25,359 bases of DNA. It comes from a virus. This document shows positions 4,301-24,390 of the stretch, piece by piece. The stretch spans positions 1-25,359 of IMG/VR virus record IMGVR_UViG_3300017788_000157. The stretch is one strand, 5' to 3'. Made by a program: the position numbers and the translations under genes. The notes beneath the pieces were generated by a model. That model made no database searches. It was not told the DNA's origin and saw only the letters and a list, made by a program, of their open reading frames with translations. Positions within the stretch are counted from its first letter, which is position 1; each line of letters starts with the position of its first letter.

Positions 4301-7300
4301 CGAGGATTGCAGTTCTAAAGATGCAGTGTCTAAATTCAATATTGTTGACGTGCTAGAATATGAAGAGGGTATTGTTTCAGTGGGTATATAGGGATTTTCA
4401 GTATATACCTGGGTAGGACTGTTGTAAGGTCCATATTTATGATTTGGTTTTGCCAATCTAGCTCTTACAGCAGTGGTTCCAGAAGTTCCTTGTATTGCTT
4501 CTCCAACAGCAAATGTGCCACTAACCATCTGCACTTCAACTAATTTTGGTATGGTATACTTATTCATATCAACATTATCAAAAAATGCATACAACTGAGT
4601 TTTTGGTTTCAGTCTTCTTGAAATAAACTCAACATTTCTTGATCTCATAGTATGAATAACTTCAGTAGACACTACCTTAGTTCCTAAATTCACATAATCA
4701 AATTGTTCACTTACCTTATATTGAATACCCTGTCTAGATTGTTTAGTAGTTGTTAAAGTAGTTACATTAGCAAAATCAGTATATTGATCTTTATAATCAA
4801 TCTTTGTCCATTCTGGAATACCTCTACCTTTTTGATATCTGCCTCTCCAACTAGTTCTACCAGTTTCTTTAGTTCCAATATAAATGGAACCCATGTTTTT
4901 TCTACCTGTTTCTACAGTTCCGGTCCAAGTAGTTTCCCAAGCTCCCCACGTAATAGGTGATAATCCAGTGTTTGTATCAACCCCTAATTGTTGAATAGTT
5001 GTATTATAGGTTCCTTCTTGGTCAACTGTTTTTTTGGTTCCCTTTGTTTCAATCCAAGTATCAGTAGCAGGATTTAATTCAATTGCACCAATCCAATTGA
5101 CAACGTTAAAAGGATTTACATTTACAATTCTAGTTGCAAACTTATTTTGTAACCACTGTTTATCTGTATATTTTAAACAGACTACATCTCCAACTTTTAC
5201 TGTATTTGGATTTCCCAAGTCTTTAACAAATCTCAAATCCGCATCTGGGTTAGATGTATTTGCTGCGCCAACTACAGCTTCAGATCCAAGTAAAAGGTCA
5301 ATCGAAGTTGTATAGTGTTGTGGTCTCAAATGTCCTTCTAGGGTATCAATACTGCATTTATGATTTGGATTTCCTAAAGAACCTGCACTATCTGATTTAA
5401 AATTATCAACAAAGAATCCCGTCTTAAATCTATCTAATCCGGTTTGACCATCCTTTAAAGTTAAATTTTTAGTGTCACTCTCTAATAAAGATAACGAAGT
5501 GTAGTATTCTACATTTTTCAGTCTATCCTCAAGTCTTGCAATATCTTGCATTCTATAACGTTTATGCGTAGATAATTGGACTTTTACATCGTTAGAATTG
5601 TAAACATATGGAGGCATTAAAATTGTAGCTACTTCTAATGCTGTTTCAACATCTTTAGGATTTTGTGGATTTAACGATGGCACACCACTACTTACAAAAA
5701 ATTCTCCAAATCTATTTAAATATAGTTTATCAATTCTTCCCAGATAATAATCATAAGAAACTATGATATTTTTATCCTTTGCTATATTAAATGGGCTTGA
5801 GTTTGTTGATGCCGAATATGTTCTTGCCGCATATTCAAATGGAGAATAAATATTAGTTGATTGATTATATGGTGAAACTCTAGGTCTTACATCAATAATA
5901 TCATTTGCTCTGTAAGTATCAACATAAGGTAAATCATTAGAAAATCTTTCTTTATCATACGAAGTTACTGTTATAAAATCGCCAGTATCTGCTGGATCAA
6001 TTACATAGTTATGATATATTATTTTTAATTGTTTAGTTGGGGCTGTGATTCCTTCTTTTCTAGTGATATATGCATAATTTGCAATTTCACGTTCTTGTCC
6101 ATAATCAATAATAAAGTCATTGATTATATTTCTATCTCCCTCAATAAATTTGACAACATTAGCGGTTAAATTTGATTCAACAAAAATAATTTTTTCATCT
6201 GCAACAAAAGAATTTTCATTGACATAAACAATTTCAATGGTATTTGATCCATTATTTTCAACTAATACAGCCATAGCTTGACTAGATTCACCATATACCA
6301 TTTCTCCTCGTTTAGAATTGAGAATATTGCCATTCAAATTGGATAATTCTAATTTCGGAAGGTCTGCTGGATTTGAATCTGAAGATTCAAATATGCCCAT
6401 AACAAAAGCAACATCTGGAACTTGTAATGAAATATCTTTATCTTGAACTCTAGTTCCATAAATTGAACTATAAGTTAATCCATCGGCCAAAGTTGTACTT
6501 GTTATTCCAGATGATGGATTTGCTGATCTAGTAATATTTAAAACTGTTGATCTATTATAAAGTTTTTTCCTTGATTTTAAACCTGTTTTTTTCAAAGTTG
6601 CAGTTAATGTTGCTGGCCCGTTTGCAGTTAATTGAACTAGGTTTATAGTTCTTCCAGCAGTAATTGAAAATTTAGAACTAGTTAGTGGTTCATTAGTTCC
6701 ATTAGAATAAACTAAAGTATAGTCTTCCTCATCAAATGGAACTAATGTAATATCTGTTCCGGATTCTAAAGTAGCAGTAACTGCATTTGAAGATACCGTT
6801 ACGGCATAAGATTTTCTAAATATAATTTCACCATTTGTCAAATCAACCGACGCAATATCCGTATTTTCGTATTCAGTAAATAAAAATGATTCTTTACTAT
6901 TAGTTAATACTGGAATAACCTTAAATACATCTGTAGAAGTTATAGAAGAAATTGATAGAGTTCCATCACAAACTCCATTAACTGAAGTTGTAGGTTTAAC
7001 AATTATTCTTTTGCCAGAAGTATTAACCTCAGAAACTATATTGTATGTTGGAACTGTTTGACCTGATTTAGTATAAGAGATAATATCTCCAGTTTTGATA
7101 CCTATTCCAAAAATAGAAGTGGAAGCTGAAATCGTACTAATTCCAGATGAAGCAGTAGAAATACTAAAAGTTGTTCCCTGCGGGGATAAAAGTAGTGGTT
7201 GACTTAATAATAAATCTCCAGTGAAAGAGGTTCCATCTAAACTAACTACTTGTCTAACATCAGATAGTGAATAGTCTCTTACTGCAGTAACAGTTCTTGA

Positions 7301-8890: not shown

Positions 8891-10486
8891 TTAAAACTCC
8901 AGTATGACTTTAATATCTTCTTTTTGGCTAGAAGATCTGGGAATTGGCTGCCTATTATCTATGTAAATAATTTCACCAGACTTTTTATTATATTCTGCAG
9001 AGGATATGCCCGAAACAAAATCAAGACCTAACTGATATATTCTATTATTTATTGTGGTTGTTATACCGTTAAAATCAGTATTGATTGATAAAGCTGGTCC
9101 AATAATTGAAGATCCGTTTATTGTAACTCCATAACCAATGTCTGGATTTGATGTGAAAGGAAGTATTCTAAATGCAGTTTCACTTGAAGCTAGTCCCGTT
9201 GATTGATAGTATTTAAGAACTCCTGTTATTGGATCCCATGATGCAACGAATCCTATTGCAGTTGACCCAAATCCAACTGTTTGAGTAATTTTTGAATCTA
9301 TTGCATAAGTTGTGTTGGTAGTAACTCCGGATAATTTTAAAGCCTGCAATCCACTTACCAAAGAAGTATTTAATACTTGGGTATTACTGCCAACAACGGT
9401 TGGATTTTTTATCACTCCTACTCTAGCAAAATCGTTTCCGAGAATAATATCCGGATTACTCTCTAACGTTTCAAATCTAGAATATAACAAAACACGATTT
9501 GCACCCAGTTCTCTGTATATATCATATCCATGTCCACCTTTCGGGGGGATTATTACTTGAAAAGTTGCTACAGAAGTTGTACCAATTCCAGTATTACTTA
9601 ACTGACCTAATGCGCCATTAATATTTGATTCTGGAGCTCCTGGATAAAATTGAATGGTGCCATATGTATAGTCTTTTCCGCCTTCAGTAACGAATATCTC
9701 GGATATTTTTCCAAAAGAATCGATTGTAATTGTAGCTTTACCTCCAGAACCATCACCCAATATTGGAATATTTGAAAAAGAAGTTGAAATTGGTTGATAA
9801 TTGGAACCCCTATTTGTGACAAGAATTACTTCTATTTTTCCATCAATAGAATTATTTTTTGTTGCAACACTTTCTCCAACTACTCCCCAATCTTCAGGAA
9901 CTGGAATATACTCAATAGAATCAAATTTAACAATTTCGGAAGGTTTAATAGTGTAAAGGTATTTCCAAACATATCCGTCTCCACTAGCGCCCGCAGATCT
10001 GGGTTCCAAATCAATAAAAGTCGGTTGATCGTATGATGGTCTACCCTTAGGATTTTCAGGATCCGTGCCATTTTGAAGGCAAATATAAACTCTTAAATCA
10101 TCATTAATTACGTAATAATTTGATTCATATAGAGAAGTTGAATTTGAAACCGGTGAAGGGTTATAAACATTATAATCATGTCTATACATTTCATAAGTAT
10201 TGCCGGCAACCCAAGGTGTTTTTCTAATTAATCTCCTAACATCTTGATTCGTTATTTGTTTCATTGCAATAATACTTTCTTTTATCTGGTTTTCCTCTTG
10301 AAAACCATCCAAAGGAGATGGTGTATTAGCAATCCAAGTTGGTGTTCCACCAGTAGCCGGATTTAATGCATTAGGAAGGCCAATAAAAGTATAATATTTA
10401 CTATCAGTATTTCCAACACCAGAAACGCTTTTTGCAAAAGTTTCTGCGTTTAGAATTCTAAATTGATCCGATATAATTGCGGGCAT
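8891..10486 (-). CDS. 8: Baseplate wedge protein gp8 homologue, enlarged (531 aa)
   Basis: Two parts match T4 gp8 as I recall it. Residues 169-178 read GDGYVWKYLY (T4: GDGYVWEYLF), followed by EYIPVPEDWG (T4: EYIVVPWPEEL). The last 29 residues, from about 503, begin SGEIIYIDNRQPI (T4: SGEMIYMENRPPI) and end in an acidic stretch, then ILEF (T4: ILFTF). T4 gp8 has 334 residues and joins gp7 and gp10 in the wedge; this protein has about 200 more. The extra length falls mainly between the two matching parts and includes beta repeats of the GxGY kind (RGSNYQP near residue 226, then GSGGKATITIDSFGK). It starts 23 bases after the stop of the gp7-like gene, as gene 8 follows gene 7 in T4. The ribosome binding site is weak (A-rich). 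A poor late promoter candidate, ACTAAATA, lies at 10507-10514. Confidence 0.85.
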   Translation of the reverse strand: MPAIISDQFRILNAETFAKSVSGVGNTDSKYYTFIGLPNALNPATGGTPTWIANTPSPLDGFQEENQIKESIIAMKQITNQDVRRLIRKTPWVAGNTYEMYRHDYNVYNPSPVSNSTSLYESNYYVINDDLRVYICLQNGTDPENPKGRPSYDQPTFIDLEPRSAGASGDGYVWKYLYTIKPSEIVKFDSIEYIPVPEDWGVVGESVATKNNSIDGKIEVILVTNRGSNYQPISTSFSNIPILGDGSGGKATITIDSFGKISEIFVTEGGKDYTYGTIQFYPGAPESNINGALGQLSNTGIGTTSVATFQVIIPPKGGHGYDIYRELGANRVLLYSRFETLESNPDIILGNDFARVGVIKNPTVVGSNTQVLNTSLVSGLQALKLSGVTTNTTYAIDSKITQTVGFGSTAIGFVASWDPITGVLKYYQSTGLASSETAFRILPFTSNPDIGYGVTINGSSIIGPALSINTDFNGITTTINNRIYQLGLDFVSGISSAEYNKKSGEIIYIDNRQPIPRSSSQKEDIKVILEF

Positions 10487-10509: not shown

Positions 10510-13500
10510 TTAGTTACTTAATAGTCCTCTTGTTCTAAAGACCTTAGCAGAAGTATTTAATCCAACCAATCCATCATTTGTATAAGTTTCAAAAGATTCT
10601 GCTCCGGATAAAGACAAAGCTCTATTTTGGTAGTCATATATTTTACCCCAACTATATCTTCCATAAAAATTATTAGTTCCGACACCAGTATTATTTGGAC
10701 CTCTTTTATAAACTTTAACATAATTATCTACCATAGGAGCAAAATGACATGTTACCGTCACTATGCCTAGATTTGGAGTTGTTACATTGTCTGCAATATA
10801 AACTCCATCTATAAAACTTTTTGCAGTTCCAATTCTTGAATTTGGATAATTACTCATTCCACCAAGTAAAGTTGTTATTCCTACCAAATCACCTCCAGTG
10901 GAAACATTACTATCAGTAATTACAAAATAATCACCTTTTTGTAATTGACTATTAGAAATTCCAAATGTATTAAGAGATGAATATCCGATTCCTAAAGTAT
11001 TATTATCATAAGTTTCAGACTGTAAGACAAATTCTATTTTTGGTGAGGTTGTTCCTATGCCAGGAGTTCCAGAAATAAATGTGTTTATTCCAATAATTAT
11101 TCCATGGTCACCTACTGCCTTAAAAGATTTAATAGTTTCAGATCTAAACACATCTGGTTCAATCATTACTGCAGGTGGAGAATTTTGCAAGTATCCAAAT
11201 CCACCATCTATAATAACGATTGAAGTTACTAATCCAGAAGTTACTGATGATTGTGCTACAGCCCTATGGAAAACAGGTTCAGCATATATTACAGTCGAAG
11301 CTGCGCCAACTGCAATATATTTTCCATTTATGCCAAGAGATTCCTCAAATGATAAATCTTTTATGTTATTAGTTCCCACATAATCCCTAATAACCCATGT
11401 AGATAAATTAAATGAGTAGTATAAGTCCCCACTAGATGTAATAGCAACGTAGAAACCATAATTATATTTAATATTTACAAAATTTGTTGATCCATACAAA
11501 TTAGTTGTTATAAATTCATACGAACTTCTACTAATAGATTTTAATATAGCTCCACTATTTGCAGCAATAATAAAATTACTTCCATCAAAAGTAACTTTAT
11601 TTAAATTAAGGGTAGTTGGAGATGGTTCTAATTCCCAGAATAATCCAGTATTTGAAGTTAATATTGTTCCATCATTACCAACCGCAACAAAATATCCATT
11701 ACCAAATGCGACACTATTTAAATCTTTAATTGTTCTAGAATATCTATTTACAAAAGTATTTGTATCTATACCAGAACCAACAAATATAGATCCAGCGGTT
11801 CCAACGGTTATCCATGTATTTGGTAATGGATTATATACAATTTCTTTTAACGTTCCGTCATATGAACTGGATTGTAGCGATAATGCTCCATATCCAGGAA
11901 TAGATATTTCTTCAACAAGGCTTAATTGTGTCCAACCTGAAATAGTATTAGCATATCCGATTGCTTTTCCAATTTTTCCAAAAGATCCAACAGCTAGTAT
12001 TGTATCAGAATTACCATATCCAACAGATGCAGAATATACAGAATTAAAATTAGTAGTTGCGCCTAATCCAATATTTCCAACTTCCCAGTCGGAGCCGTCC
12101 ACACTAATGACATACAGGGAACTATTTCCAACAGAAATAATTCTCTCACCAAAAGATACTGAATTCAATTGAGATGTTGTAGATAATCCAGTAATACCAG
12201 TAACAGTATTCCATTCATATATGGGATCTTTAATTGAAATAGCAGAAAGGGATATATTAACATATGGAGAAGTAGTATATGCATATCCAATTCCAGGAGA
12301 AGTTATTGTTATCGAAGAAAGTGTTGATGCTACTGAAACTATAGACGTAGCTTCTGCTGCTTCAGTATTTCTATTTTCAACTATGAATAAATCTCTTAAA
12401 TCTTCAACCAATCCATCAGTTCCAGCAAAAATTGGAAAAACATTATCAACATAAATTGAAGTATCTTCCGGAGATATACTTTTTATTATAGTAGCATTTG
12501 GTCTTATATTGCTTTGTAGATTTGGTCTAGATTTTGCAAATAATGATCCTGTTATAATTTTATCTTGTTTTTGTTTTTTCCATGTCAATGGTCTTTCTTT
12601 ACTAGAATCTGTAATAATTCCTATACTGCCATAAGTAAATGTATCCAATTGATCTGATGATACTATTTTTTTGACTGTTCTTTCAAATTGAGAAATGTCA
12701 TAAAAATCATCACGATTTTCTTGAATTATTAATGAATCGCCAACTTTTATAGTTTTTGGTGGTTCTATTTCTTCAACATCAACTGATGAGCCTCTGTAAT
12801 AAAGAATGCTACATTTAGAGTTTCTTCTAGGTGCTTCCTTGAAACTTACTCTACTTCCTTGGAATGTATAAGAATCTAGAGGATTTTGTAATACATCATT
12901 AATGTAGATAAAGATATTATTTGTAATATCCAAATCTGACCCAACGGGAGTTTTTAAACTTAAAATTTGTCTAACACCATTAATCATCGCAGCCAAAGTA
13001 AATTTCTTTCTAAATCCATTAAAGTTTTCGGAAATATCATCGAATATGATAAATTGTCCTGGATAAAAACCACTAAATTTATCGGTCTGAACTTCCTGTA
13101 CGGTAATTAGGAATTCACTAAAAGATGTTCCAATACCAACGTTAGTTGATATTCCGGGAACAGAGAGAATATCGCCAACTTTATATCCAACTCCAACTTC
13201 ATCAAGTTTAAATGAAATTATACTTGATCCCGAACCAACTTCAACTGTTACTTTAGCGCCTTGACCAACACCAGAACTGCCTCCAGTATATGCCACAGGT
13301 AAATTACTATATCCAGTTGGAATGCCTATATTAATTTTAGGAATAGATGATATAGTATACCCAACACCCGGATTAACTATGGTAAACCCAGTAATAGTTC
13401 CCGAAACTCCAACAGTAGCAGTAATGCTAGCCCCAAATCCAATAGTTGAAGATATACTGACTGATGGAGATTGTCTATATCCAAGTCCACCTTGATCTAT

Positions 13501-16500
13501 AACAATAGATGAAATAGTACCAGATGCAGAAACTACAACTGTAGCCGCTGCTCCAATTCTAGGTTGATATCCAAACCCGGTTGTAATGGCTACTTTTGAA
13601 ATTTTACCTGATGATGGAGTGCCTGATAAAAACTTTACAACATTTTGAGAGTCATTATCAATTGTAAAGTCTGATTGCGGAACTTGCGGAACATTATTTA
13701 TTAAAATAAAAGGATTATTGTTGATATTTGATCCACTGTTAATATTATTAAAAAGAGTGGTTGTATTCTGTCCGTTTGATTTTATGGTAAACTCTGTTGC
13801 CGCAATTCCTGTAAATGATAGGGATATATCATCAAGCAATATATTTTTATCTTGTGGTGTAGCAGCATTAAATTGTCTTGAAAAAGCTCTTCCTCCAAAA
13901 ATAGATCCAGTGGACAGTCCGGCTGGTCCAATTTTACCATATGGAGCAGTAGTAAAGAATATTGTATCTTTAACAATATTAAAATCTCCAGTCAATACAG
14001 TTGCGGAGACTCCTACCGTATGAACTCCTGCAGTTGTTCCCAAATATCCCCTTTCAACAAAAATGGAATTGCTGGAAGATATTCCAATACTTTTAACTAA
14101 GATATATTCGTTACTTAAATTTAAAATATCATATGCATTAAGAGAAGATATTCCACTAGAAACATTAAGTATAGTTGTATTAGCGGTTGAAACATTAGAA
14201 GCTAAGCTCACTGATAAAGATTTTCTTCTGATGGATGTTTGTATAACTCCATCTATTGTTATTATTACACTTGCATTTGGATCTTTATGACTTAAAGTAT
14301 GATAACCAGTGCCAAATCCAGTAAAATTTAAAAATCTAGAACTAGTTGAAAGACCAAAAACTTTAAATTCGTTATCGTTTAACTTATATACAAATAAAGA
14401 TTCTGGAAGTTTTGAGGCGCCTAGTTCTAACGGAGTAAATGTAATAAAATCATTTGTTGATCCTCCGATATAAGTTCCTGCTATAGAAATAGTTGAAGTA
14501 AAGGCATATCCTGGAGCTGGATTTGATACTTGAACGTCAGAAACATATCCACCAGATCCATCTCTAGTGACATTAAACAGAGCACCACTTAAATCAATTG
14601 AGGGAACATTTGAATAAACTTCATTAGCTCTTGTTTGAATTCCAGTTGGTCCAGTATTAGAAACAACAAAACTTAGATCATTAGTTGGAGTTGTCCCGCC
14701 CATATAAGTTCCAGCTATAGAAACTGTCTGACCAACGAAATATCCACTTCCACCAGAAGTTAAAACTATAGATGTAGATAATGGTTGTCCGGTTGATGGG
14801 GAATACGTAATTAAAACATTAAACGTTGCATTTATACCAGAAGTAGTTCCTATACCGATAACTTGAGTATATTGTTTTAGAGATGGTCCTACTGGAGATA
14901 AAACTGTTGAAATACCAGTTATAGTAGTTGAAATAGAAACGCTATATCCCTGTTGAAGAATTGCGGTTCCATTAATGTTACCAACCTCCATAACTTCGGT
15001 TGTATTTCCTAAAACATAAGAAGTCGTTGCTATTCCTATTGGACTTCCTCCAGAATATTCGTAAATTAATTCGTGTCCTGTTTGGAAGTTATGATTTGGA
15101 ATAATAAATTTATTTGATTCCAAATCAACATAAGTACTCGCAGAAGAAACTATCACATGACTGAATAATGAAGTTCCTTTATTTTTTAATTTAAATGTTG
15201 ATAATCCTACAATACCGCCCCCTCTAGATATTGATGGGAGAATTATTGTTGGTGCAAAATTAGTACCAAGTCCAATAATTGTAGTAATAATGCCAACATA
15301 ATTGCCAAGTGCAGTTCTAACATCTGCACAATCTGCAGTGCCATAATTTTCTGTAGGAATGCCTGCTAGACTACTATTACCTATTGATACTGTTAATATG
15401 CCAACTAGTGTGTCAATATTTGTTTGAATATTCGCACAAGAATTTGGATCAGTGTTAAATCCAGTTAATGGATCAGCAGTGATTGTTAAATCTTTTACAT
15501 TTAATTGATTTGTTATTGCTTGTTTCATTAACAATTTAGCTGTTTCAAAAGCATAAATTGATTCAGATTCTTCGCCAACTAAACCAGAAGTTAAAGCAAT
15601 TCCAGCTCCAGTAAAATATTTTTTAGTATTATAGAGAGTATGTTGATTAGTTCCGTAAGATATGTCTTGAGCAACTCCATCAATAATATATCCAAGGTCT
15701 CTAAAACATTTTGATTGACCACTAGTGTATGTGCCAACATTAGTTGCTGGTAAAGTGGTTGTAGATCCTATAGAAATAACGGCAGTAACTATTCCAACAA
15801 GAGTTGAAATATTATTTTGAACATCAGTACATGCTGCTGTAGAGGTAACTCCCACTGTAGTTCCAATACCATACACTGGAGGACCAGGTGTTACAGTTAG
15901 ATCTTGTATTGTAAGTCCGTTTCTCACGGCAGATCTCATTAAGTTGCGAGCTGCAACAAAAGCAAAAATAGATTCTGCTTCCTCACCAACCAAACCATTT
16001 GCAATCGGAGATCCCTGATTAAAGTATTGCAAAATAAATTGTTTAGTGTAAGAGTTTCCTCCTAAAAATACATCCACTGAAATAGCATCAATAAAATACC
16101 CAATATCACGTTTACACTTATTCTGAGTTGTAGAAATTCCTGGATATGTACTGAGAGTATTATTCCAAGAAGTATCAATAATTTCTTGTTTATTTTGTTG
16201 TATCAATCTATATCCATCAGCATATCTTGATCTAAATGTAGTTTGTGGATCTGGGGGGAAATAAAAGTCTGGAAATCCTACTGCAACAGAAGCTAAAGAT
16301 TTATCTTGAATTTCTCTTTTGTTTGCCAGTATTAGATTTCTAGCATCTTTATATCGATTTACTGTTGGATTTAAAGGATCCTGTATAATTTCAAAATCAA
16401 ATTCCTGTGCAACTGATGTTTGATATAAAGTTGGTGGAGTTTGATTATTAATTACATATTGACCTAAAAATTTAACGTAATTATATGCAAATAGTGTTTC

Positions 16501-19500
16501 TTCTGTTTCATTGACGACATAAGAAGCTCCTGCATTCCAATATGCAAGTCCAGCCTCAACAGATTTATCATTTGAATTATATTTCAAATCATGAGAAACT
16601 GCATCAACAATATATCCAACATCTCTTTTACACTTTTCCGCGTCATATGTTGTACTAATTCCAATATTTGGGTAATTAAATTCAACAAATGCTACTACCT
16701 CTTCTTGAATGAATTCCTTATTTAAATCGAGTAGATCAGAAGCATCGGCATATCTACCATCTAAATTTTGTAATGAACTTCCATTAAATTGCTCACTAAT
16801 GTCATCAATTCTCAAAACTTTATTAGTTTTATTAATAATAAATGGTCTTAAATTTACACCTTCAGTAAAATAAACAGATTCGACAGATCCATCATCCAAA
16901 GTTTGGTCTTCATAAACTCTTGCAAAATTAAATTTATCATACATTGAAATTTCATTATCAACATTTATTGATAATGTAGAATCGGAACCCGCAAGTTTTA
17001 CCCTCATATTTGTAGATTTTGCATATCCAATGTTAGTTGGATTTGTATAAATTACAAGATCTGAAAATTCTTTAAATCCAGATGGGTGGACAATAGATCT
17101 AACAGATTCTCTCCATTTATCATATGATATATCACTTTTAAGTGAGTATGCGAATTTTTGATAATAAAAATTATCCGAGATCCTCTGTTGGAAATCATTC
17201 AATATTCCTACAGAATTATCCACTGAAGCCACTTTATCTCTAAAAACTCCAAGTGTTGATTTTAGATCAAAAGTATCAAAATAATCTACTTTACCATTAA
17301 TTTTAGATCTTTCCCCATACAAATAGTCACCAACCTGAAGAGTACCATATCCATCGTTCATTCTCAGTTGGTTTAAATTATTGTCCCAACCGTTTTCCAT
17401 AACAGTGGCTGTAAAATCAGAACTGATTACTTTTTCAGAAGATTGATAACTAACATCATCAACTAAATTCATTTGGAAAACTGGTAAATCTTTTTGATTA
17501 ATAACTGTTCCCAGAGTAAATTCATCATTATATGTTCCAAATTGACCGGTCGAGATACCACTCATACTGTATGTAACAGTATTGTTCAGAGAACTTATAC
17601 CTGTTACGGTAAAAAAGCTATAATTATATGAGGAGGAATTGAAATTGGCTTTATCTCTTGTGCTTGAAGTTAATCTACAATTTTCAATAAAAATTTTATC
17701 TCCCACAGCAAAAGGATATTCTACTAATGTACTACCGTAACCAATAGTTACGAATGGATTCAGTCCTGGAGTATTACTTAATTCTAAAGTTACAGAATTA
17801 CCAACATATGTAATGTTATCAATTTCATATCCATTAGAATTTCTAATAGAAATTATTTCTAATGGTGACGAGAGAGATGTTGAATTATTAATAATATTAA
17901 CTTTAGAGATAGCTCCACCAGTTACAGAACAAGATAATTTAATACTAAGATCGTCCTTGACCAACAATTCTGGTGGACCATTGTATTTTCTTCCTCCAGT
18001 AATTATTCCAACGTTAGATATTGTTCGTATATCTTTTATTCCACAAATAACAGGAATACTAAGTCTGGGAGATAACGTTGGATCTGTTGGATAATCAAAT
18101 CCATCTTTAATTCTTTCGTATGATTCTACTCTGCCTATTTTTTCAGACTTTAATTTTAAAATAGCATTTTTTCCAAGTTTTGTATTGATTTTTTCAATAA
18201 ATGGTAGTTTTTTATATCCTCTGCCAGCAAAGTTTATTTTAACGTTAGAAATTGCACCAATAGCTGAGGTTGAAGTAGTTTTGTATGATGAATTAGATGA
18301 TGAAACAGAAGTCAATTCATTAAATGAAAGTTTTGTATCTAACAAAAAAGTAAATTCAGTATTTGATATTGTGGTAATTCCAACTTTTCTGTTCAAAGGA
18401 TGATTTTTTACAATTATTTGATTATTACCAGAAACAGAATAATCTGAACTTAATTGAGTTTTACTTTCTTCAATAGGACTCTTAAATATTAAATTATAAT
18501 ACAAAACAGTTGGGAAATTTTTATTAGACGTGTCTAATGTTACATAAGAATCATTAGTTCCAGGAGTTCCTGAGTTGACTATTGCAAATCCATTAATATT
18601 ATTTCCAATAATATCCAATCGTTTTGAATAAAAAGGATCAGAATAAAATTTAATATCCATATTCAATAAACTTGGATCAGATAAATTAAATTTAATTATA
18701 TCACCTTTTATAAATTTTAATGGTGGATTTACAAAATAAAGAGTTTGTGATGCGGATCCAACAGTTGTAAAGTCTATAACATTTTTTTGAGATCCGGAAT
18801 TAGTTTTTGTGTCACTTTCATGTAAACATAATTTTATTTTGTCAACATCTTCTTTCAATACATAATACGTTCCACCATCAGTCAGGCCTCCTATAGGTGT
18901 GGAAGCAAAATATGTAACTTTATCTCCATTTTTTATTTCATTAACATAACTAGATAAATTAATAGTATTATTTAAGATTGAAACATCGCTATCAGAAAAT
19001 AATATTTGATTTACTAATAATTTTCTATTAATTTGGTCAAATTTAATTTTTATTTCGTTTTCGATAGAGCTGGAAAGCGAAATTGATACCATATCTCCAG
19101 TCACCAATCCGTGACTAACATTTGTTGTAATAATCCCACTGGATGTTATAATTGTGCCGGTTATTTTTTTATTTGTTGTACTTAACGAATGAGCGGATCC
19201 AACTACACCAAAGGCCTCTGTTAAGGCCCAGAACTCTAGGGACTTCAAATTTGTTCCTATCCCTGATGAAGTAGTGAACCCTACGGTTGATAATCCAACA
19301 TAATTTTTACCTAGATTAACTGCATAAACTTTTTGATTTTGTTGTAAACTAAACGATTGTCCAGATCCTACATTATTAACATATAAAGATGTTCCACCTA
19401 ACCCACAATTATAAATTAATTCTTGACCAGTAAAAAAGCTATGTCCTGGTATGTAAATACTTCTACTTGGTAAAAATATTGAAACAAAAGAAGAAGTTCC

Positions 19501-22500
19501 AAGACCAACGACATTTCTACTTATTCCGGCTGTGCCTGTTCCAACAGATTCTTTTGGGTCAAAAAAAGTAACCGTATTTTCAAAAGTATAATCGGAAAGT
19601 GGTTCTTTTAAGTTCAGTTCAAATCTTTTTGGCAATAAATCCACCGTATCAATACCTGCAGTATGAATGCCGGTATTTTCAATACGATTGACATAAAATC
19701 CTGATCTTTCGGGAGAAATACGAGTGATTAATAATTTTTCTGTACCAATTGCTACGGTATCATTAACTCTAAATCCACCGATATCCTTTACAAAAATAAT
19801 TGTAGAAATTCCTGTATTAGCTACTATATCAATATTCTTCAATAATTGAACCGATTTTTGAGTAACTTTGACAGATCTTTGTCCAGACAAACCACTTGAG
19901 GTAATAGTTGAAATTCCAGAAATAGAAACTACTTCATTATTTCTAATTTGATGTGGATAATCTACGACTCCAATTATGTTAGTAGATCTTATTACAAATG
20001 AAACATTATCTAACTTATTTTTTAATACTGTAAGGCCGCTTATTTTTTTTCCTTCTATCTCGGATATTACGATATTTGCACCATTTCCGGAAGTATTTTC
20101 ATTATTGAGAATAATATCATCTTCAACTTTATAATCTTGGCCCGCAGAAAATATTACAACATCATCAATAACTGATGATTGTATGTCCGATATCCTGAAC
20201 TCTTGTTTATATTCGTCTACAACTTTATCAATTAAATTATAAAATGAATTTTGTTTATCCAAATAATATGGTGCAACATTCCTGGTTAGGTCATTCGTGA
20301 AAATATTTAAATCTTGATTATACTTTGGTAAAAAATTCTCCTCTACAGGAGTATTATAAAAGCTATTCGCAACTACATAGGGATACGATGGAGTAGATCT
20401 TTTTGCAGCATCTACACTTATTGAATAAAAATAAGCATACGTTCCATCAGGGTATTGTGGGGTTATGCAAAATCTTCCATTATTTTCATCTAGATCGCCA
20501 GATCCATTGTAAGCATAATCATTAACAAAGTATCCGGGTTCAAATAAAGGTGGTCTCAATGATTCGTTTATATTCAAATTTAATATATAACTTGATTTCA
20601 TTTGTCTTACAAATCCACCTAAAGTAGAATTAAACCCATATGGACCATAAATTGGATTTCCATCATAAGCAAATCCTAAAATAGGAGAATGTATTAATGT
20701 TCCGGAAGTTTCTTTATCGGTTTCTGCAAAATTATCAGAAAGTTGATATCTAAGTTTTTTAGGAATATAAAAATTAACGAATTGAAGTCCTAAGTCTACA
20801 TTTTTATTTGGATATAAAACTCCATCATCATTAACGGAAATTTGATTTTTTAATTTTACAACTTGATTTATTTTCCATTCCGTTACATTTGCCAAAAATT
20901 TAGCATCTAATCCTCTATTTTGTAATGTAAGTTGAGTAGTAGATACACCATATCCTATGCCACCTCTTAAGATATTAACAGCGGATAATCTACCGTTAGA
21001 ATCAATAATAGGATCAATTTCTGCAAAAGATCCATCTCCAGAAATAATAATATCAGAATCTTTTCTATATCCTCTGCCTTTATTAATAATTTTAACATCA
21101 ACAATATTACCATTAATAATGATAGGTTTTAGTATTGCTTCCGATTTTATGCTAGAGATTCCAACATTTGGTCTACGATGAAAATTGATAATATCTGTAC
21201 AACCAAATCCAACTCCACCTTCTTCGACATAAACATCGTTTATACTACCCAATACCAAGGGCTCAAGTATAGGTTTTATGATTGTGGTCGATCCAATTGC
21301 AGAGATTGTTTCAACAGATATTTCAATTGGTGGATAAGATACACTATGAGTGCCTATTCCCAGATCATTAAACTTTGCGAATCTTCTTTCAAGAAAAAGT
21401 GCATTGGTTTGTGTCGTTCCAATTCCAGCTGGAGCCAATTTAAATTTATTGTCATCAATAACCCCGACATAATAGTAGATAGAAGTTGATAATCCAGAAA
21501 TAACTGTTCCTGTAGTAGAATATTGTACAAGTTCTCCATCTAAGAATCCGTGTTTTCTAGCAAAAAAATATGAATCAAATGTATTAATTCCCAGTGTCCT
21601 GTTATCAGCGGATAATATTGATGGAACTTTAATAGTTCTATTGGAGTATCCTTCACCAGGATCTTTAACATATACTTCGGTAATTGTATTTTTATTTTTT
21701 AAACTACTGAAGTAGTGGAATCCAGAACCTGTTCCTGTTATGTCAATGACATTAGTTGAATTTAGTGCATCTTGTTGTGTATTATAAACTTTTAATTTTG
21801 TGGAGGTTACGAACCCAATAAAATAACTAGATCCATTAACTAATCCAGGCACATCATCGTTAGTATTTGAATCGTAAATAATTTCTTCACCATTTTCAAA
21901 TAATAAATTTTCTAAAAAAGTTATAGTATTATCTGAAGAATTAACATTAATATCTGCTTTAAATCCAAATCTAAGTCTTGAACTTACTAAATTGCAATCT
22001 AAAGCACAACCCTTTCCATTACCACCACTAATAGTAATTTTTGGTTTCTCTTTATAACCAACACCAGCAGAAATAATTTTTACTTTTTTAATACTTCCAG
22101 ATAAGTTAAGATGTGCTTTTACAGACGATCCAACTTCATCCTTAATTTCAATTGAAGGAGTATTTACAATATCATAGTTTTTTCCAGAATTTATAACTTC
22201 AATAGATTGTATTGCTCCGTAATAAATATTTTCATCGAATAAAGTTGGAGATAATATTTCAACTCCATTTACTAATAAACCTATTGGCCTATTTGTAGTT
22301 CTTCTTTTATTAATATCATCAAATAAAGTAGATTGTTTTTGTAAAGGAAACTTTTTAAGTATTTTTTGATTTCTTAAAATTTTATTTTCAAATCCAGCTT
22401 TAACTATTGTATCAGATGATATGCCAGAATTTGATGTAATATACTTTTTGGAAAAAATATCAGATTTACTATAAGATAATTTAATAGAATTTGAATCAAT

Positions 22501-24390
22501 TTTGGTTACATAATAATATCCGGTTGATATTCCACTTTCTGGAGTGAAAGAATTATAATATATAAAATCACCATTTATCAATTGGTGATTTTGTGCATAA
22601 AATATCGATGTGATTCCAGATCCAAATGTTTGTGGCAATAATGATAATGATTGCGTAGAAATTATTTGTTTATTATCAGTTGAAAAAATAGGATAATTTG
22701 GTAATCCAGTTGAAGTTACATAAAAATTTTCATGTTTGGAATCAACATAAGTGTTTTGGATTCCAGCCGGAATCGAAGTAACTTCTGGAAAATAATTTGA
22801 ATAATGATTAGACTTATATATTTTTTTTCTTATAGATTTTATTCTAGTTAAATCGAATGAGGCACTAAGACCTGACTGAACTAAGATTCTATTGGTATAT
22901 TTTCTTATTTTATCCGAAGAATTATACTCAACAGATAAAATACTAGCGTTACTAAGATTATTATTTTTATCGACTAAAATTATATTTTCATTTTGATAAA
23001 AAGAAATCTCATCAAATAGTATAATTCTATATCTGTTGCTAGAAACTTGAGAAAGACTTTTTACATTATGTTCAGTTGGAATATTATAAATCCAATTATT
23101 AGAAGATACTTCATCTGCTAAATTTTTTCCAAATCCAGATAATTTTACTTTGTCATTTATTCTAAGACTTTTTGTTTTTGAAAAATCAACTTTATCAATA
23201 ACATTAATAACTCTAAATTTAACTTCTGAGGTATTTCCAATACCAATATAACTAAAAGCAAATTTTTCTTCTATAATATCTAGTCCAAATGTTAAATTTT
23301 TAGTTATTCCAGTTACACCCAAAAATTGATTCGTGGTTATATCAGTATAAAACAATTCAATAAAATCGGAATTTTCTGGTTTTACAAGAATTTTGCCAGT
23401 TTTTGAAAATCCAATAGTTGAATCTACCAAAATAGTATTTGATCCTATTGGAGTGTCTTCTAATAATTTCGTTTTACCCGAAACTTCAAAGTTACCGCTA
23501 AAAGAAGTAGAGTCTAAAGATATTTCATAAAATTGTTTTTTGTCTACAGGTCTATACTCAATATTATAAATTGAAGCGCTGACAGTTCCTATGCCAGTTA
23601 AATTTTGATATAAAAAATTACCCCTAATATCTGTAGGATTTCCACCGGAAATTTTTTCTACTAGAATATTTTTCGTAGTAAAATATGGATTTGATGATGG
23701 TATTAATGTATAATCTTGTGGTTTTATTACCTCAACATCAGTACCGAATAAAACCTTGAATAGTAATTTATAAGATGAATCTGTTCCTTTAGAGCTATAA
23801 AAATCTCGAGCACTAGTTAAAACATTTTCAATTGAAATTTCTTCGTTAAAGTCTCTATCTTCAAATCCAGGAAAAAATTCCGACTTAAACTTTTCAAAAA
23901 ACTTTAAAAGAAAAAGATTGCTTAAATTTAAAACAATAGAATTTTCAAGATGTTCTTCAGATGATGTAGAAACAAAATTTAAAAACTCGGAATTTTCTAT
24001 AGAATTAATGGCATCAATCCCACTAAATCCTCGAATACAACCCTCGAAGGTAGTATTGGTTTTTGATGTATATGTAATGATCTCATTATCTATTTTTAAT
24101 AATCCATATGTTGATGGCCACCCATCAGTAGATATAACATTTATTGAAGTATCAAATTTTAAAATATTTTTTGTTGATTTTGTAGATTCTGTTAAATTTA
24201 ACTTATTGAATTGAGAGATATCTTTATACTTTTTTACATTTATAGCAAGATCTATTGCTCCAGACTGATGTTCAAGAGATTGGTAGTATTGTTTTAAAAA
24301 CTCTACAAAAAGAGGAGATTCTTCTATTAAAAACTCTGGGATTTGTGATTCTATTATAGAATCAATTTTAACTCTTTTAATTTCTGACAT
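10510..24390 (-). CDS. 7: Giant gp7-like baseplate wedge protein with multiple modules (4626 aa)
   Basis: Residues 17-42 (IPEFLIEESPLFVEFLKQYY...) and 193-223 (ARDFYSSKGTDSSYKLLFKV, then LFGTDVEV) resemble the C-terminal part of T4 gp7 as I recall it (SYDFYSTKGIEASYKFLFKV). Residues about 2406-2448 (NFYYQKFAYSLKSD..., YDKWRESVRSIVHPSGF) resemble the next gp7 block (SYYVMKIKSN..., SRWKSDVIRFVHPVGF). T4 gp7 has 1032 residues, with roughly 110 between these blocks; here about 2180 intervene. In order, the protein then shows a YHYH domain (about 1230-1330, inside the insertion), helical Cys/Arg-Asp repeats (about 2526-3030), DDIS-FNG beta modules (about 3516 and 3779), and a seven-unit propeller-like region (about 4070-4370). 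GxGY beta repeats run throughout. It begins one base after the gp6 stop (TAA A ATG), so translation is probably coupled. It should be the clamp or scaffold of the wedge with gp6 and gp8. The gene symbol rests on this partial similarity plus synteny. Confidence 0.85.
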   Translation of the reverse strand: MSEIKRVKIDSIIESQIPEFLIEESPLFVEFLKQYYQSLEHQSGAIDLAINVKKYKDISQFNKLNLTESTKSTKNILKFDTSINVISTDGWPSTYGLLKIDNEIITYTSKTNTTFEGCIRGFSGIDAINSIENSEFLNFVSTSSEEHLENSIVLNLSNLFLLKFFEKFKSEFFPGFEDRDFNEEISIENVLTSARDFYSSKGTDSSYKLLFKVLFGTDVEVIKPQDYTLIPSSNPYFTTKNILVEKISGGNPTDIRGNFLYQNLTGIGTVSASIYNIEYRPVDKKQFYEISLDSTSFSGNFEVSGKTKLLEDTPIGSNTILVDSTIGFSKTGKILVKPENSDFIELFYTDITTNQFLGVTGITKNLTFGLDIIEEKFAFSYIGIGNTSEVKFRVINVIDKVDFSKTKSLRINDKVKLSGFGKNLADEVSSNNWIYNIPTEHNVKSLSQVSSNRYRIILFDEISFYQNENIILVDKNNNLSNASILSVEYNSSDKIRKYTNRILVQSGLSASFDLTRIKSIRKKIYKSNHYSNYFPEVTSIPAGIQNTYVDSKHENFYVTSTGLPNYPIFSTDNKQIISTQSLSLLPQTFGSGITSIFYAQNHQLINGDFIYYNSFTPESGISTGYYYVTKIDSNSIKLSYSKSDIFSKKYITSNSGISSDTIVKAGFENKILRNQKILKKFPLQKQSTLFDDINKRRTTNRPIGLLVNGVEILSPTLFDENIYYGAIQSIEVINSGKNYDIVNTPSIEIKDEVGSSVKAHLNLSGSIKKVKIISAGVGYKEKPKITISGGNGKGCALDCNLVSSRLRFGFKADINVNSSDNTITFLENLLFENGEEIIYDSNTNDDVPGLVNGSSYFIGFVTSTKLKVYNTQQDALNSTNVIDITGTGSGFHYFSSLKNKNTITEVYVKDPGEGYSNRTIKVPSILSADNRTLGINTFDSYFFARKHGFLDGELVQYSTTGTVISGLSTSIYYYVGVIDDNKFKLAPAGIGTTQTNALFLERRFAKFNDLGIGTHSVSYPPIEISVETISAIGSTTIIKPILEPLVLGSINDVYVEEGGVGFGCTDIINFHRRPNVGISSIKSEAILKPIIINGNIVDVKIINKGRGYRKDSDIIISGDGSFAEIDPIIDSNGRLSAVNILRGGIGYGVSTTQLTLQNRGLDAKFLANVTEWKINQVVKLKNQISVNDDGVLYPNKNVDLGLQFVNFYIPKKLRYQLSDNFAETDKETSGTLIHSPILGFAYDGNPIYGPYGFNSTLGGFVRQMKSSYILNLNINESLRPPLFEPGYFVNDYAYNGSGDLDENNGRFCITPQYPDGTYAYFYSISVDAAKRSTPSYPYVVANSFYNTPVEENFLPKYNQDLNIFTNDLTRNVAPYYLDKQNSFYNLIDKVVDEYKQEFRISDIQSSVIDDVVIFSAGQDYKVEDDIILNNENTSGNGANIVISEIEGKKISGLTVLKNKLDNVSFVIRSTNIIGVVDYPHQIRNNEVVSISGISTITSSGLSGQRSVKVTQKSVQLLKNIDIVANTGISTIIFVKDIGGFRVNDTVAIGTEKLLITRISPERSGFYVNRIENTGIHTAGIDTVDLLPKRFELNLKEPLSDYTFENTVTFFDPKESVGTGTAGISRNVVGLGTSSFVSIFLPSRSIYIPGHSFFTGQELIYNCGLGGTSLYVNNVGSGQSFSLQQNQKVYAVNLGKNYVGLSTVGFTTSSGIGTNLKSLEFWALTEAFGVVGSAHSLSTTNKKITGTIITSSGIITTNVSHGLVTGDMVSISLSSSIENEIKIKFDQINRKLLVNQILFSDSDVSILNNTINLSSYVNEIKNGDKVTYFASTPIGGLTDGGTYYVLKEDVDKIKLCLHESDTKTNSGSQKNVIDFTTVGSASQTLYFVNPPLKFIKGDIIKFNLSDPSLLNMDIKFYSDPFYSKRLDIIGNNINGFAIVNSGTPGTNDSYVTLDTSNKNFPTVLYYNLIFKSPIEESKTQLSSDYSVSGNNQIIVKNHPLNRKVGITTISNTEFTFLLDTKLSFNELTSVSSSNSSYKTTSTSAIGAISNVKINFAGRGYKKLPFIEKINTKLGKNAILKLKSEKIGRVESYERIKDGFDYPTDPTLSPRLSIPVICGIKDIRTISNVGIITGGRKYNGPPELLVKDDLSIKLSCSVTGGAISKVNIINNSTSLSSPLEIISIRNSNGYEIDNITYVGNSVTLELSNTPGLNPFVTIGYGSTLVEYPFAVGDKIFIENCRLTSSTRDKANFNSSSYNYSFFTVTGISSLNNTVTYSMSGISTGQFGTYNDEFTLGTVINQKDLPVFQMNLVDDVSYQSSEKVISSDFTATVMENGWDNNLNQLRMNDGYGTLQVGDYLYGERSKINGKVDYFDTFDLKSTLGVFRDKVASVDNSVGILNDFQQRISDNFYYQKFAYSLKSDISYDKWRESVRSIVHPSGFKEFSDLVIYTNPTNIGYAKSTNMRVKLAGSDSTLSINVDNEISMYDKFNFARVYEDQTLDDGSVESVYFTEGVNLRPFIINKTNKVLRIDDISEQFNGSSLQNLDGRYADASDLLDLNKEFIQEEVVAFVEFNYPNIGISTTYDAEKCKRDVGYIVDAVSHDLKYNSNDKSVEAGLAYWNAGASYVVNETEETLFAYNYVKFLGQYVINNQTPPTLYQTSVAQEFDFEIIQDPLNPTVNRYKDARNLILANKREIQDKSLASVAVGFPDFYFPPDPQTTFRSRYADGYRLIQQNKQEIIDTSWNNTLSTYPGISTTQNKCKRDIGYFIDAISVDVFLGGNSYTKQFILQYFNQGSPIANGLVGEEAESIFAFVAARNLMRSAVRNGLTIQDLTVTPGPPVYGIGTTVGVTSTAACTDVQNNISTLVGIVTAVISIGSTTTLPATNVGTYTSGQSKCFRDLGYIIDGVAQDISYGTNQHTLYNTKKYFTGAGIALTSGLVGEESESIYAFETAKLLMKQAITNQLNVKDLTITADPLTGFNTDPNSCANIQTNIDTLVGILTVSIGNSSLAGIPTENYGTADCADVRTALGNYVGIITTIIGLGTNFAPTIILPSISRGGGIVGLSTFKLKNKGTSLFSHVIVSSASTYVDLESNKFIIPNHNFQTGHELIYEYSGGSPIGIATTSYVLGNTTEVMEVGNINGTAILQQGYSVSISTTITGISTVLSPVGPSLKQYTQVIGIGTTSGINATFNVLITYSPSTGQPLSTSIVLTSGGSGYFVGQTVSIAGTYMGGTTPTNDLSFVVSNTGPTGIQTRANEVYSNVPSIDLSGALFNVTRDGSGGYVSDVQVSNPAPGYAFTSTISIAGTYIGGSTNDFITFTPLELGASKLPESLFVYKLNDNEFKVFGLSTSSRFLNFTGFGTGYHTLSHKDPNASVIITIDGVIQTSIRRKSLSVSLASNVSTANTTILNVSSGISSLNAYDILNLSNEYILVKSIGISSSNSIFVERGYLGTTAGVHTVGVSATVLTGDFNIVKDTIFFTTAPYGKIGPAGLSTGSIFGGRAFSRQFNAATPQDKNILLDDISLSFTGIAATEFTIKSNGQNTTTLFNNINSGSNINNNPFILINNVPQVPQSDFTIDNDSQNVVKFLSGTPSSGKISKVAITTGFGYQPRIGAAATVVVSASGTISSIVIDQGGLGYRQSPSVSISSTIGFGASITATVGVSGTITGFTIVNPGVGYTISSIPKINIGIPTGYSNLPVAYTGGSSGVGQGAKVTVEVGSGSSIISFKLDEVGVGYKVGDILSVPGISTNVGIGTSFSEFLITVQEVQTDKFSGFYPGQFIIFDDISENFNGFRKKFTLAAMINGVRQILSLKTPVGSDLDITNNIFIYINDVLQNPLDSYTFQGSRVSFKEAPRRNSKCSILYYRGSSVDVEEIEPPKTIKVGDSLIIQENRDDFYDISQFERTVKKIVSSDQLDTFTYGSIGIITDSSKERPLTWKKQKQDKIITGSLFAKSRPNLQSNIRPNATIIKSISPEDTSIYVDNVFPIFAGTDGLVEDLRDLFIVENRNTEAAEATSIVSVASTLSSITITSPGIGYAYTTSPYVNISLSAISIKDPIYEWNTVTGITGLSTTSQLNSVSFGERIISVGNSSLYVISVDGSDWEVGNIGLGATTNFNSVYSASVGYGNSDTILAVGSFGKIGKAIGYANTISGWTQLSLVEEISIPGYGALSLQSSSYDGTLKEIVYNPLPNTWITVGTAGSIFVGSGIDTNTFVNRYSRTIKDLNSVAFGNGYFVAVGNDGTILTSNTGLFWELEPSPTTLNLNKVTFDGSNFIIAANSGAILKSISRSSYEFITTNLYGSTNFVNIKYNYGFYVAITSSGDLYYSFNLSTWVIRDYVGTNNIKDLSFEESLGINGKYIAVGAASTVIYAEPVFHRAVAQSSVTSGLVTSIVIIDGGFGYLQNSPPAVMIEPDVFRSETIKSFKAVGDHGIIIGINTFISGTPGIGTTSPKIEFVLQSETYDNNTLGIGYSSLNTFGISNSQLQKGDYFVITDSNVSTGGDLVGITTLLGGMSNYPNSRIGTAKSFIDGVYIADNVTTPNLGIVTVTCHFAPMVDNYVKVYKRGPNNTGVGTNNFYGRYSWGKIYDYQNRALSLSGAESFETYTNDGLVGLNTSAKVFRTRGLLSN
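11270..12175 (-). repeat. Seven-unit beta-propeller-like repeat in the gp7-like protein
   Basis: Residues about 4070-4370 of the giant protein hold seven units of about 30-45 residues. They begin LNSVSFGERIISVG, FNSVYSASVGYG, LKEIVYNPLPNTWITVG, LNSVAFGNGYFVAVG, LNKVTFDGSNFIIAA, FVNIKYNYGFYVAIT and IKDLSFEESLG. Several end in a Ser/Thr-x-x-Trp strand (DGSDWEV, TGLFWELEP, LSTWVIR). The pattern (hydrophobic-N-x-V-x-F, then YxVAVGxxGTIxxS) is that of BNR or Ycf48-like propeller blades. No catalytic residues of a sialidase are evident, so a binding or structural role is more likely. Seven units would close one propeller. Confidence 0.65.
13000..13846 (-). repeat. Two DDIS-FNG beta modules within the gp7-like protein
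   Basis: Two units begin NILLDDISLSFTG (13846 downwards) and FIIFDDISENFNG (13057 downwards) and continue for about 80-90 residues through an IxINxxxQxP turn (ILINNVPQVPQ, IYINDVLQNP) to a closing FKEAP or FLSGTP strand. The second unit runs below 13000 to about 12785. A third, shorter match (IDDISEQFNGS) lies near 16813-16780. The same layout makes up the first half of the 225-residue gene product. Confidence 0.6.
15290..16760 (-). repeat. Cys/Arg-Asp helical repeat region in the gp7-like protein
   Basis: Three units carry C(K/F)RD(V/I/L)GY(I/F)(V/I)D: CKRDVGYIVDAV near residue 2586, CKRDIGYFIDAI near 2757 and CFRDLGYIIDGV near 2894. Three units carry RYxDxxxL with NKxxI: RYADASDLLDLNKEFI, RYKDARNLILANKREI and RYADGYRLIQQNKQEI. 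Two units carry GLVGEE(A/S)ESI(F/Y)AF. Three short units carry a Cys followed by VGI(V/L/I)T (near 2854, 2985 and 3021). The region is predicted to be mostly helical, unlike the beta-rich rest of the protein. Its function is not known to me. Confidence 0.65.
17047..17175 (-). other. Second gp7 core block (residues about 2406-2448 of the giant protein)
   Basis: The block reads NFYYQKFAYSLKSD, then YDKWRESVRSIVHPSGFKEF. The T4 gp7 block, as I recall it, reads SYYVMKIKSN, then SRWKSDVIRFVHPVGFGFI. The shared elements are a Y-Y start, a K-S pair, a W(R/K) pair, and (I/F)VHP.GF. In T4 it lies about 110 residues after the first core block; here it lies about 2180 residues after it. Confidence 0.65.
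20400..20700 (-). other. YHYH domain within the gp7-like protein
   Basis: Residues about 1230-1330 read HSPILGFAYDGNPIYGPYG, then DLDENNGRFCITPQYPDGTY and AYFYS. This is the signature of the YHYH family: a G-(F/Y)-x-D-G-x-P-I-Y-G-P core and a later N-G-R-F-C-x-T-P-x-Y-P-x-G-T-Y-A-Y-F. The family occurs as a domain of unknown role in many marine proteins and in structural proteins of marine phages. No enzyme activity can be assigned from the sequence. Confidence 0.75.
23715..24345 (-). other. First gp7 core block (residues about 17-223 of the giant protein)
   Basis: The block runs from IPEFLIEESPLFVEFLKQYY to ARDFYSSKGTDSSYKLLFKV and LFGTDVEV. In T4 gp7, as recalled, DSYLLQDSNFEAFCEAYIQY and SYDFYSTKGIEASYKFLFKV, then LYNEEVEI, occupy the corresponding places. 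The strongest shared elements are the FYS(S/T)KG motif, SYK.LFKVL and the following VE pair. Confidence 0.75.

Follow-up and report, generated by a model that had tools for sequence, protein, structure and literature searches.

A giant gp7-type baseplate wedge protein of a cyanophage with a probable accretion site between domain V and the HPxGF segment

The largest gene of a 25,359-base virus sequence encodes a 4,626-residue protein, P0001. With a probability of about 85%, we take this protein to be gp7, the baseplate wedge subunit, of a marine T4-like cyanophage, with a linker that tolerates accretion between domain V and the HPxGF segment. Two blocks of P0001 are homologous to consecutive blocks of T4 gp7, they occur in the same order and in one reading frame, and the distance between them is graded among relatives. 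What P0001 would have in common with T4 is the gp7 core, equivalent to T4 residues about 650-904 and made up of a helical start, the FYSSKG segment, the domain V barrel and the HPxGF segment, and blocks A and B may still pack into one wedge core. Seven genes were examined in this sequence (the window, meaning the whole stretch of DNA that was analysed), all on the minus strand: those for gp6, P0001, gp8 and the VrlC homologue P0004, and three small ones. The main features are as follows, with positions in the window and residues of P0001:

24392-25357, minus strand: gp6, C-terminal part (PF21387, PF21871, PHROG 219); the gene runs off the record
10510-24390, minus strand: giant gp7 (P0001), 4,626 residues; PHROG 2885 'baseplate wedge subunit', best stretch residues 5-2539
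23461-24390, minus strand: block A, residues 1-310, with the helical start, the FYSSKG segment and most of the domain-V-like barrel (BLASTP, profiles; the profile envelope is 184-310)
23413-23715, minus strand: putative equivalent of the T4 gp7 domain V barrel, approximately residues 226-326 (aligned by profile to the pelagiphage relatives)
17245-23460, minus strand: insertion, residues 311-2382, including the YHYH domain (the stretch between the profile envelopes)
20407-20694, minus strand: YHYH domain, residues 1233-1328, within the insertion (PF14240, E 7.2e-20)
17026-17244, minus strand: block B, residues 2383-2455, with HPSGF (BLASTP, profiles)
10513-17025, minus strand: C-terminal extension, residues 2456-4626; the length after block B varies from 0 to 2,719 in complete frames
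8891-10486, minus strand: gp8 (PF09215, PHROG 438)
1382-8884, minus strand: VrlC homologue P0004 (DUF4815), 2,500 residues, a separate gene (PF16075, E 2.3e-58)

T4 gp7 is a baseplate wedge subunit adjoining gp6 and gp8, and the gene for P0001 lies between gp6 and gp8, the position of the gp7 wedge family; the gene order in P-SSM2 is gp25-gp6-gp7-gp8. A preliminary description of this DNA had given the open reading frame and the coordinates of the giant protein correctly. Residues 1-260 of P0001 have their best protein match in Synechococcus phage S-SCSM2R (65.6%), and homologues of the giant protein are already labelled gp7 in several GenBank records. A megablast search with 1,001 bases against 50,697 phage records returned no match, no tRNA was detected in the window, and an Rfam scan of the window produced no match at gathering score. 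We also note that gp7 relatives are spread across PHROGs 964, 2885, 4406, 701, 26741, 17744 and 3465, some of which carry the names 'head closure Hc2' or 'head and packaging'. GxGY-type motifs were counted 18 times in P0001, twice in gp8 and twice in the VrlC homologue by a loose scan without a control, and are perhaps a module common to neighbouring baseplate genes.

Direct comparison of P0001 with T4 gp7 by BLASTP aligns residues 196-221 with 733-758 (62% identity, E 3e-6) and, collinear with these, residues 2413-2439 with 862-888 (33%, E 0.057). When profiles built from the phage group of P0001 alone, without T4 rows, were searched against 177,635 PDB sequences, the top match of block A was T4 gp7 729-758 (E 1.2e-6) and the sole match of block B up to E 5 was T4 gp7 865-888 (E 0.047). 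These results uphold the original proposal that the two blocks are consecutive blocks of T4 gp7. A further PDB search, with a profile that includes T4 rows, was rejected as evidence because it is circular. The profile-profile comparison of both blocks with gp7 suggested in the preliminary description gave 96.8-98.0% for block A and 85.6-95.3% for block B against T4, and the crossed controls failed (A against T4 block B, 1.9%; B against T4 block A, 0.15%). Profiles of the pelagiphages alone did not match T4 (0.5% and 0.8%) and did match the P0001 group (99.3% and 98.3%), so that their link to T4 runs via the P0001 group. In an alignment of T4, X1, IME-SM1, Mosig, phiN3 and P0001, the N-terminal helix, FYSSKG, the barrel and HPxGF all line up, and the N terminus of P0001 is the equivalent of T4 about 640. 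Both segments of the gp7 wedge core are present in P0001, that with FYSSKG (T4 about 722-760) and that with HPxGF (T4 about 848-903), the latter being weak by itself.

The extent of the interruption was measured with profiles iterated over all groups, T4 included, whose envelopes place P0001 184-310 and 2383-2455 on T4 gp7 722-829 and 840-904, in the same order, with a gap of 2,072 residues in P0001 versus 10 in T4. The large insertion thus stands, with refined figures: the preliminary description had put the spacing at about 2180 residues versus about 110 in T4, and of the blocks that it delimited as 17-223 and 2406-2448, A extends through the barrel to about 310-330 and B comprises 2383-2455. 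Within block A there is, in addition, an extra stretch that is absent from T4 (window 23911-24204, very roughly residues 63-160), and the model of a pelagiphage relative also has a barrel where this stretch lies.

The PF14240 match confirms that the insertion holds a YHYH domain, as had been described. The insertion itself is conserved, since residues 2-2537 of P0001 can be aligned to the gp7 of S-CAM9 as one stretch with 34% identity. Its position was judged against the domains that Pfam recognizes in T4 gp7 (helical, 643-689; V, 766-861; VI, 920-1012), and the putative domain V barrel of P0001 was recognized in two steps, through the fold predicted for a pelagiphage relative and then through a profile match of 97.3% to that relative. 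The barrel predicted after block A in the relative matches gp7 763-843 (5iv5) with Z 10.1 and an rmsd of 2.3 over 80 residues, the gp7 of a Klebsiella phage with Z 10.1 and 5hx2 with Z 9.0; the next row is an unrelated protein with Z 6.7, and in Foldseek gp7 chains rank first and second. The barrels alone were used from this AlphaFold model, which has a mean pLDDT of 47.6, is poor outside the barrels and was built on an alignment in which 7 of 73 rows are T4; missing fold matches outside 247-334 say nothing, because the rest is poorly covered in the fold search. In the relative, the domain V fold stops just before the insertion site. We conclude that the insertion starts behind that domain, its most likely site being the short connection that leads from domain V to the HPxGF segment.

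The two blocks share one frame in 147 of the 195 open frames with block A (190 loci), counts that are not independent because near-identical contigs are included. Of the 48 frames with block A only, 47 leave the contig at its 3' end and one (L122) ends at a stop, the only one between its blocks A and B, with the frame unchanged. The spacing of the block starts is 117-121 residues in T4-type proteins (18 loci), 296 in both X1 and IME-SM1, 403-423 in Mosig-type pelagiphages (80 loci), 841 in phiN3 and 2063-2845 in the P0001 group (46 loci). Among 12 further phages, 11 have A and B in one frame, 116-125 residues apart in four T4-like phages, 145 in SRB7757, 367 in Rhizobium phage RHph_I1_18 and 1598-2755 in five cyanophages; the exception is S-SKS1, with the blocks in different frames. 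The gp7 gene of S-SKS1 has three frame changes with short overlaps, most likely sequencing errors, and the region of block A is unannotated in its record. The records of SRB7757 and AsFcp_1 are marked UNVERIFIED; the gp7-like open frame of SRB7757 has 587 residues, and its spacing is the smallest outside the T4-like phages sampled.

Across all relatives the spacing is therefore graded, from 116 to 2,845 residues. Compared with T4, the linker is longer by about 30 residues in SRB7757, 180-305 in the other short relatives, about 720 in phiN3 and about 1,480-2,730 in the cyanophages. Of the 1,432 records that match a T4 query spanning the junction, 1,424 cover 80% or more of it at a single place, and the best 50 of these 1,432 matches are all single pieces. 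The core is thus split by an insertion, as the preliminary description held, but this is not a one-off split: because graded, smaller insertions are found at the same place in other phages, the site is one of accretion. A tree of A plus B from 30 sequences sets the T4-type apart from the rest with a support of 100, and the backbone among the non-T4 lineages, whose order would show stepwise growth, has a support of only 46-58.

The main rival to placing the insertion after domain V is a duplication of that domain, in which the one T4 barrel would have two counterparts, one behind block A and one ahead of block B, with modules between them; the connector would then be a string of domains and the core would not be split. 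Profiles anchored on A and on B do both reach into T4 domain V, where they overlap (98.0% and 95.3%), a match of 42% (E 2.6e-4) links the pelagiphage barrel region to the residues that precede block B, and the relative's model contains three barrel-like parts (about 85-152, 245-333 and 515-598). Duplication is also possible because neither the barrel profile of the P0001 group alone (1.5%) nor the profile of the stretch before block B alone (3.7%) found T4 domain V. However, the two barrel profiles of the P0001 group do not match each other (0.2%), and gp7 is matched by the barrel after block A alone, the rows for the other two barrels naming other proteins, so that we consider a duplication unlikely, if a serious contender.

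Rather lower is the likelihood of a giant precursor that undergoes cleavage, with its insertion released or assembled separately. DSL-LC02 encodes its counterpart of the C-terminal part in a gene of its own directly behind block B, and S-SSM7 has a portion of it in a later gene, so parts of the protein can work apart; but no break was seen inside the insertion except in S-SKS1, with its probable sequencing errors, and in L122, with its one stop. It seems most improbable that gp7 is represented by block A alone and that block B is a helical motif of other origin in which HPxGF arose by chance: although BLASTP links block B to T4 with an E of only 0.057, the short relatives hold both blocks 116-423 residues apart, gp7 is the sole PDB match of block B, and the crossed controls fail. 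An insertion after domain V accordingly remains our preferred reading.

P0001 resembles the gp7 of the Straboviridae (T4; PDB 5IV5, 5HX2) in its helical start, FYSSKG, domain V and HPxGF, and in the place of its gene between gp6 and gp8. However, T4 gp7 has about 640 residues before the core whereas block A of P0001 starts at the N terminus, and T4 gp7 is without an insertion whereas P0001 has an insertion of about 2,070 residues and a further 2,170 at the C terminus. Additional domains of its own precede the core in T4 gp7, and domain VI follows it. As the approximately 640 T4-type residues before the core are absent, P0001 is not filed as a Straboviridae-type gp7. Pfam gave no match to domain VI in P0001, where it likewise misses the helical and domain V parts. 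The gp7 proteins of cyanophages P-SSM2, S-SSM7, P-HM1, S-CAM9 and S-SCSM2R have the same split core, with a spacing of 2197-2384, and differ from P0001 in the length and gene division of the C-terminal part. In the short gp7 proteins of IME-SM1 (Stenotrophomonas; 503 residues), X1 (Xanthomonas; 498), Mosig (Pelagibacter; 874) and SRB7757 (Nitratidesulfovibrio; about 587, open frame), both blocks are in one frame and the insertion is small or nearly none; those of IME-SM1, X1 and Mosig lie behind a gp6-type gene. A precedent for a wedge-protein insertion is described in PMC10966104, in whose account an insertion domain of the A-1(L) wedge protein gp31 holds a tail fibre; that insertion, of about 100 residues, is in a wedge subunit that is present twice and is read as gp6-type.

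Growth is not confined to the linker. Complete frames end with block B in DSL-LC02 (0 residues after it) or continue for about 530 residues in S-SSM7 and many contigs, 1,789 in P-HM1 and 2,719 in S-SCSM2R. The gene that follows in DSL-LC02 is homologous, with gaps, to P0001 2459-4619, and the protein is therefore divided right behind block B; in S-SSM7, P0001 residues 3410-3663 match a later gene. In P-SSM4, S-RIM8 and S-RIM2, block A begins 380-500 residues further into the frame (two of the frames are cut at the locus edge), and these phages therefore carry an N-terminal extension. With the insertion and the C-terminal and N-terminal additions, the core has grown at three places in different phages.

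According to a 2020 study, cyano- and pelagimyophages lack T4 gp7 and have VrlC in its place (PMC7029224), and PMC3037559 lists gp7 among non-cyanophage core genes. A table in PMC5349666 gives the gp7 of phage DLP6 beside cyanophage and pelagiphage proteins at about 4-7% identity, and thus already equated them. In the window, P0004 matches the annotated VrlC of IME-SM1 (blastp E 1.7e-49), so that gp7 and VrlC coexist there; P0001 has no DUF4815/VrlC match up to E 1 in Pfam or PHROG. A protein with both blocks has been found in a virion: S-CREM2 gp122 (ORF122; 1,937 residues) was detected by mass spectrometry with 91 unique peptides and 27.2% coverage, according to the data presented in PMC10665884. 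Its block A starts at 183, matching profile positions 2-55 of about 125 with the barrel not covered, and block B is at 1862-1925, about 1,680 residues away. The literature searched, which covered few subscription journals, contained no description of a split gp7 core.

The C-terminal extension carries a cassette of three helical units, repeated around Cys 2587, 2759 and 2895 and each with a CxRD motif:

15235-16776, minus strand: cassette of three units, approximately residues 2539-3052; S-SSM7 and DSL-LC02 both lack it, the borders being almost identical
16417-16782, minus strand: phycobiliprotein-like unit 1, Cys 2587 (profile of repeat units)
15901-16266, minus strand: phycobiliprotein-like unit 2, Cys 2759, folded (PF00502, 23.4 bits versus a cut-off of 22.2; model pLDDT 89.2)
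15493-15858, minus strand: phycobiliprotein-like unit 3, Cys 2895 (profile of repeat units)

Matches to P0001 stop at 2538 in S-SSM7 and 2537 in DSL-LC02 and resume at 3056 and 3053, respectively, and S-CAM9 is also without most of the cassette. A profile of 76 units searched against the PDB gave 35 matches up to E 1, every one a phycobiliprotein (lowest E 1.6e-4), and by manual count in the alignment the unit cysteine falls on Cys84 of phycocyanin alpha. PF00502 was matched at E 0.1 or better by 28 of the 76 units (best 3.5e-7) and at E 0.1 not by the other 48; the whole of P0001 scores 18.3, under the cut-off of 22.2. In each of two fold searches with unit 2, 49 of the 50 matches listed are phycobiliproteins, phycobilisomes or derived biliproteins, the remaining one in both being 8u0f, 'Bacterial fluorescent protein'. 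Among the matches listed, VIA-align gave Z 11.7-12.8, values at which helical folds (Z under about 13) may share only a common arrangement, and Foldseek gave E 0.025-0.11. Because the initial units had been picked by their motif, the invariance of C, R and D among them is by construction, and a recount was therefore made with those three columns masked in the search: all three are present in 187 of 229 ungapped units, 65 of 294 distinct rows having been dropped for gaps and the masked profile itself having been built from motif-picked units. CxRD is treated as a pigment attachment motif in PMC10151467.

The three units thus look like carriers of the phycobiliprotein fold, as modelled for unit 2. 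They have the fold in common with C-phycocyanin and other phycobiliproteins over 103-117 of 122 residues (among the matches listed), together with CxRD, and differ in being shorter and in lying within a phage structural protein; since bilin binding is putative, we name them phycobiliprotein-like only. Unit 2 matched 181 phage records at E 0.001 (140 Synechococcus phages, 30 named cyanophage, 10 Prochlorococcus phages and one marine virus), the closest match being a 3,338-residue gene of S-PM2 downstream of its 'Virulence Associated protein'. Units of this kind also occur in cyanophages S-PM2, S-RSM4 and B23, in further genes that are either tail genes or hypothetical. In the literature searched, we found no report of phycobiliprotein-like units in these phage proteins.

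In this reading the insertion and the C-terminal extension would project from the core of each wedge as a peripheral arm that carries adhesion modules, and six such arms may protrude, as the preliminary description proposed. Several marine cyanomyoviruses adsorb in a light-dependent manner, as reported in PMC2984593 (the light dependence in PMC5931967 pertains to infection and splicing and is not usable on this point). That the three units are bilin-binding globins on the baseplate, a light-sensing pigment in arms that touch the host, could explain such adsorption; we think this doubtful, and the tie between light-dependent adsorption and these units is a conjecture, for which they nevertheless provide a concrete candidate. 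The presence of both a gp7 core and VrlC in the window bears on the conflict in the literature over the replacement of gp7 by VrlC, at least as that replacement is put in PMC7029224, and a split, enlarged gp7 helps to account for the annotation of one family under many names. For the contractile baseplate, the comparison points to a growth site in a single linker, which would accommodate additions ranging from next to none up to about 2,700 residues while the core is kept on both sides.
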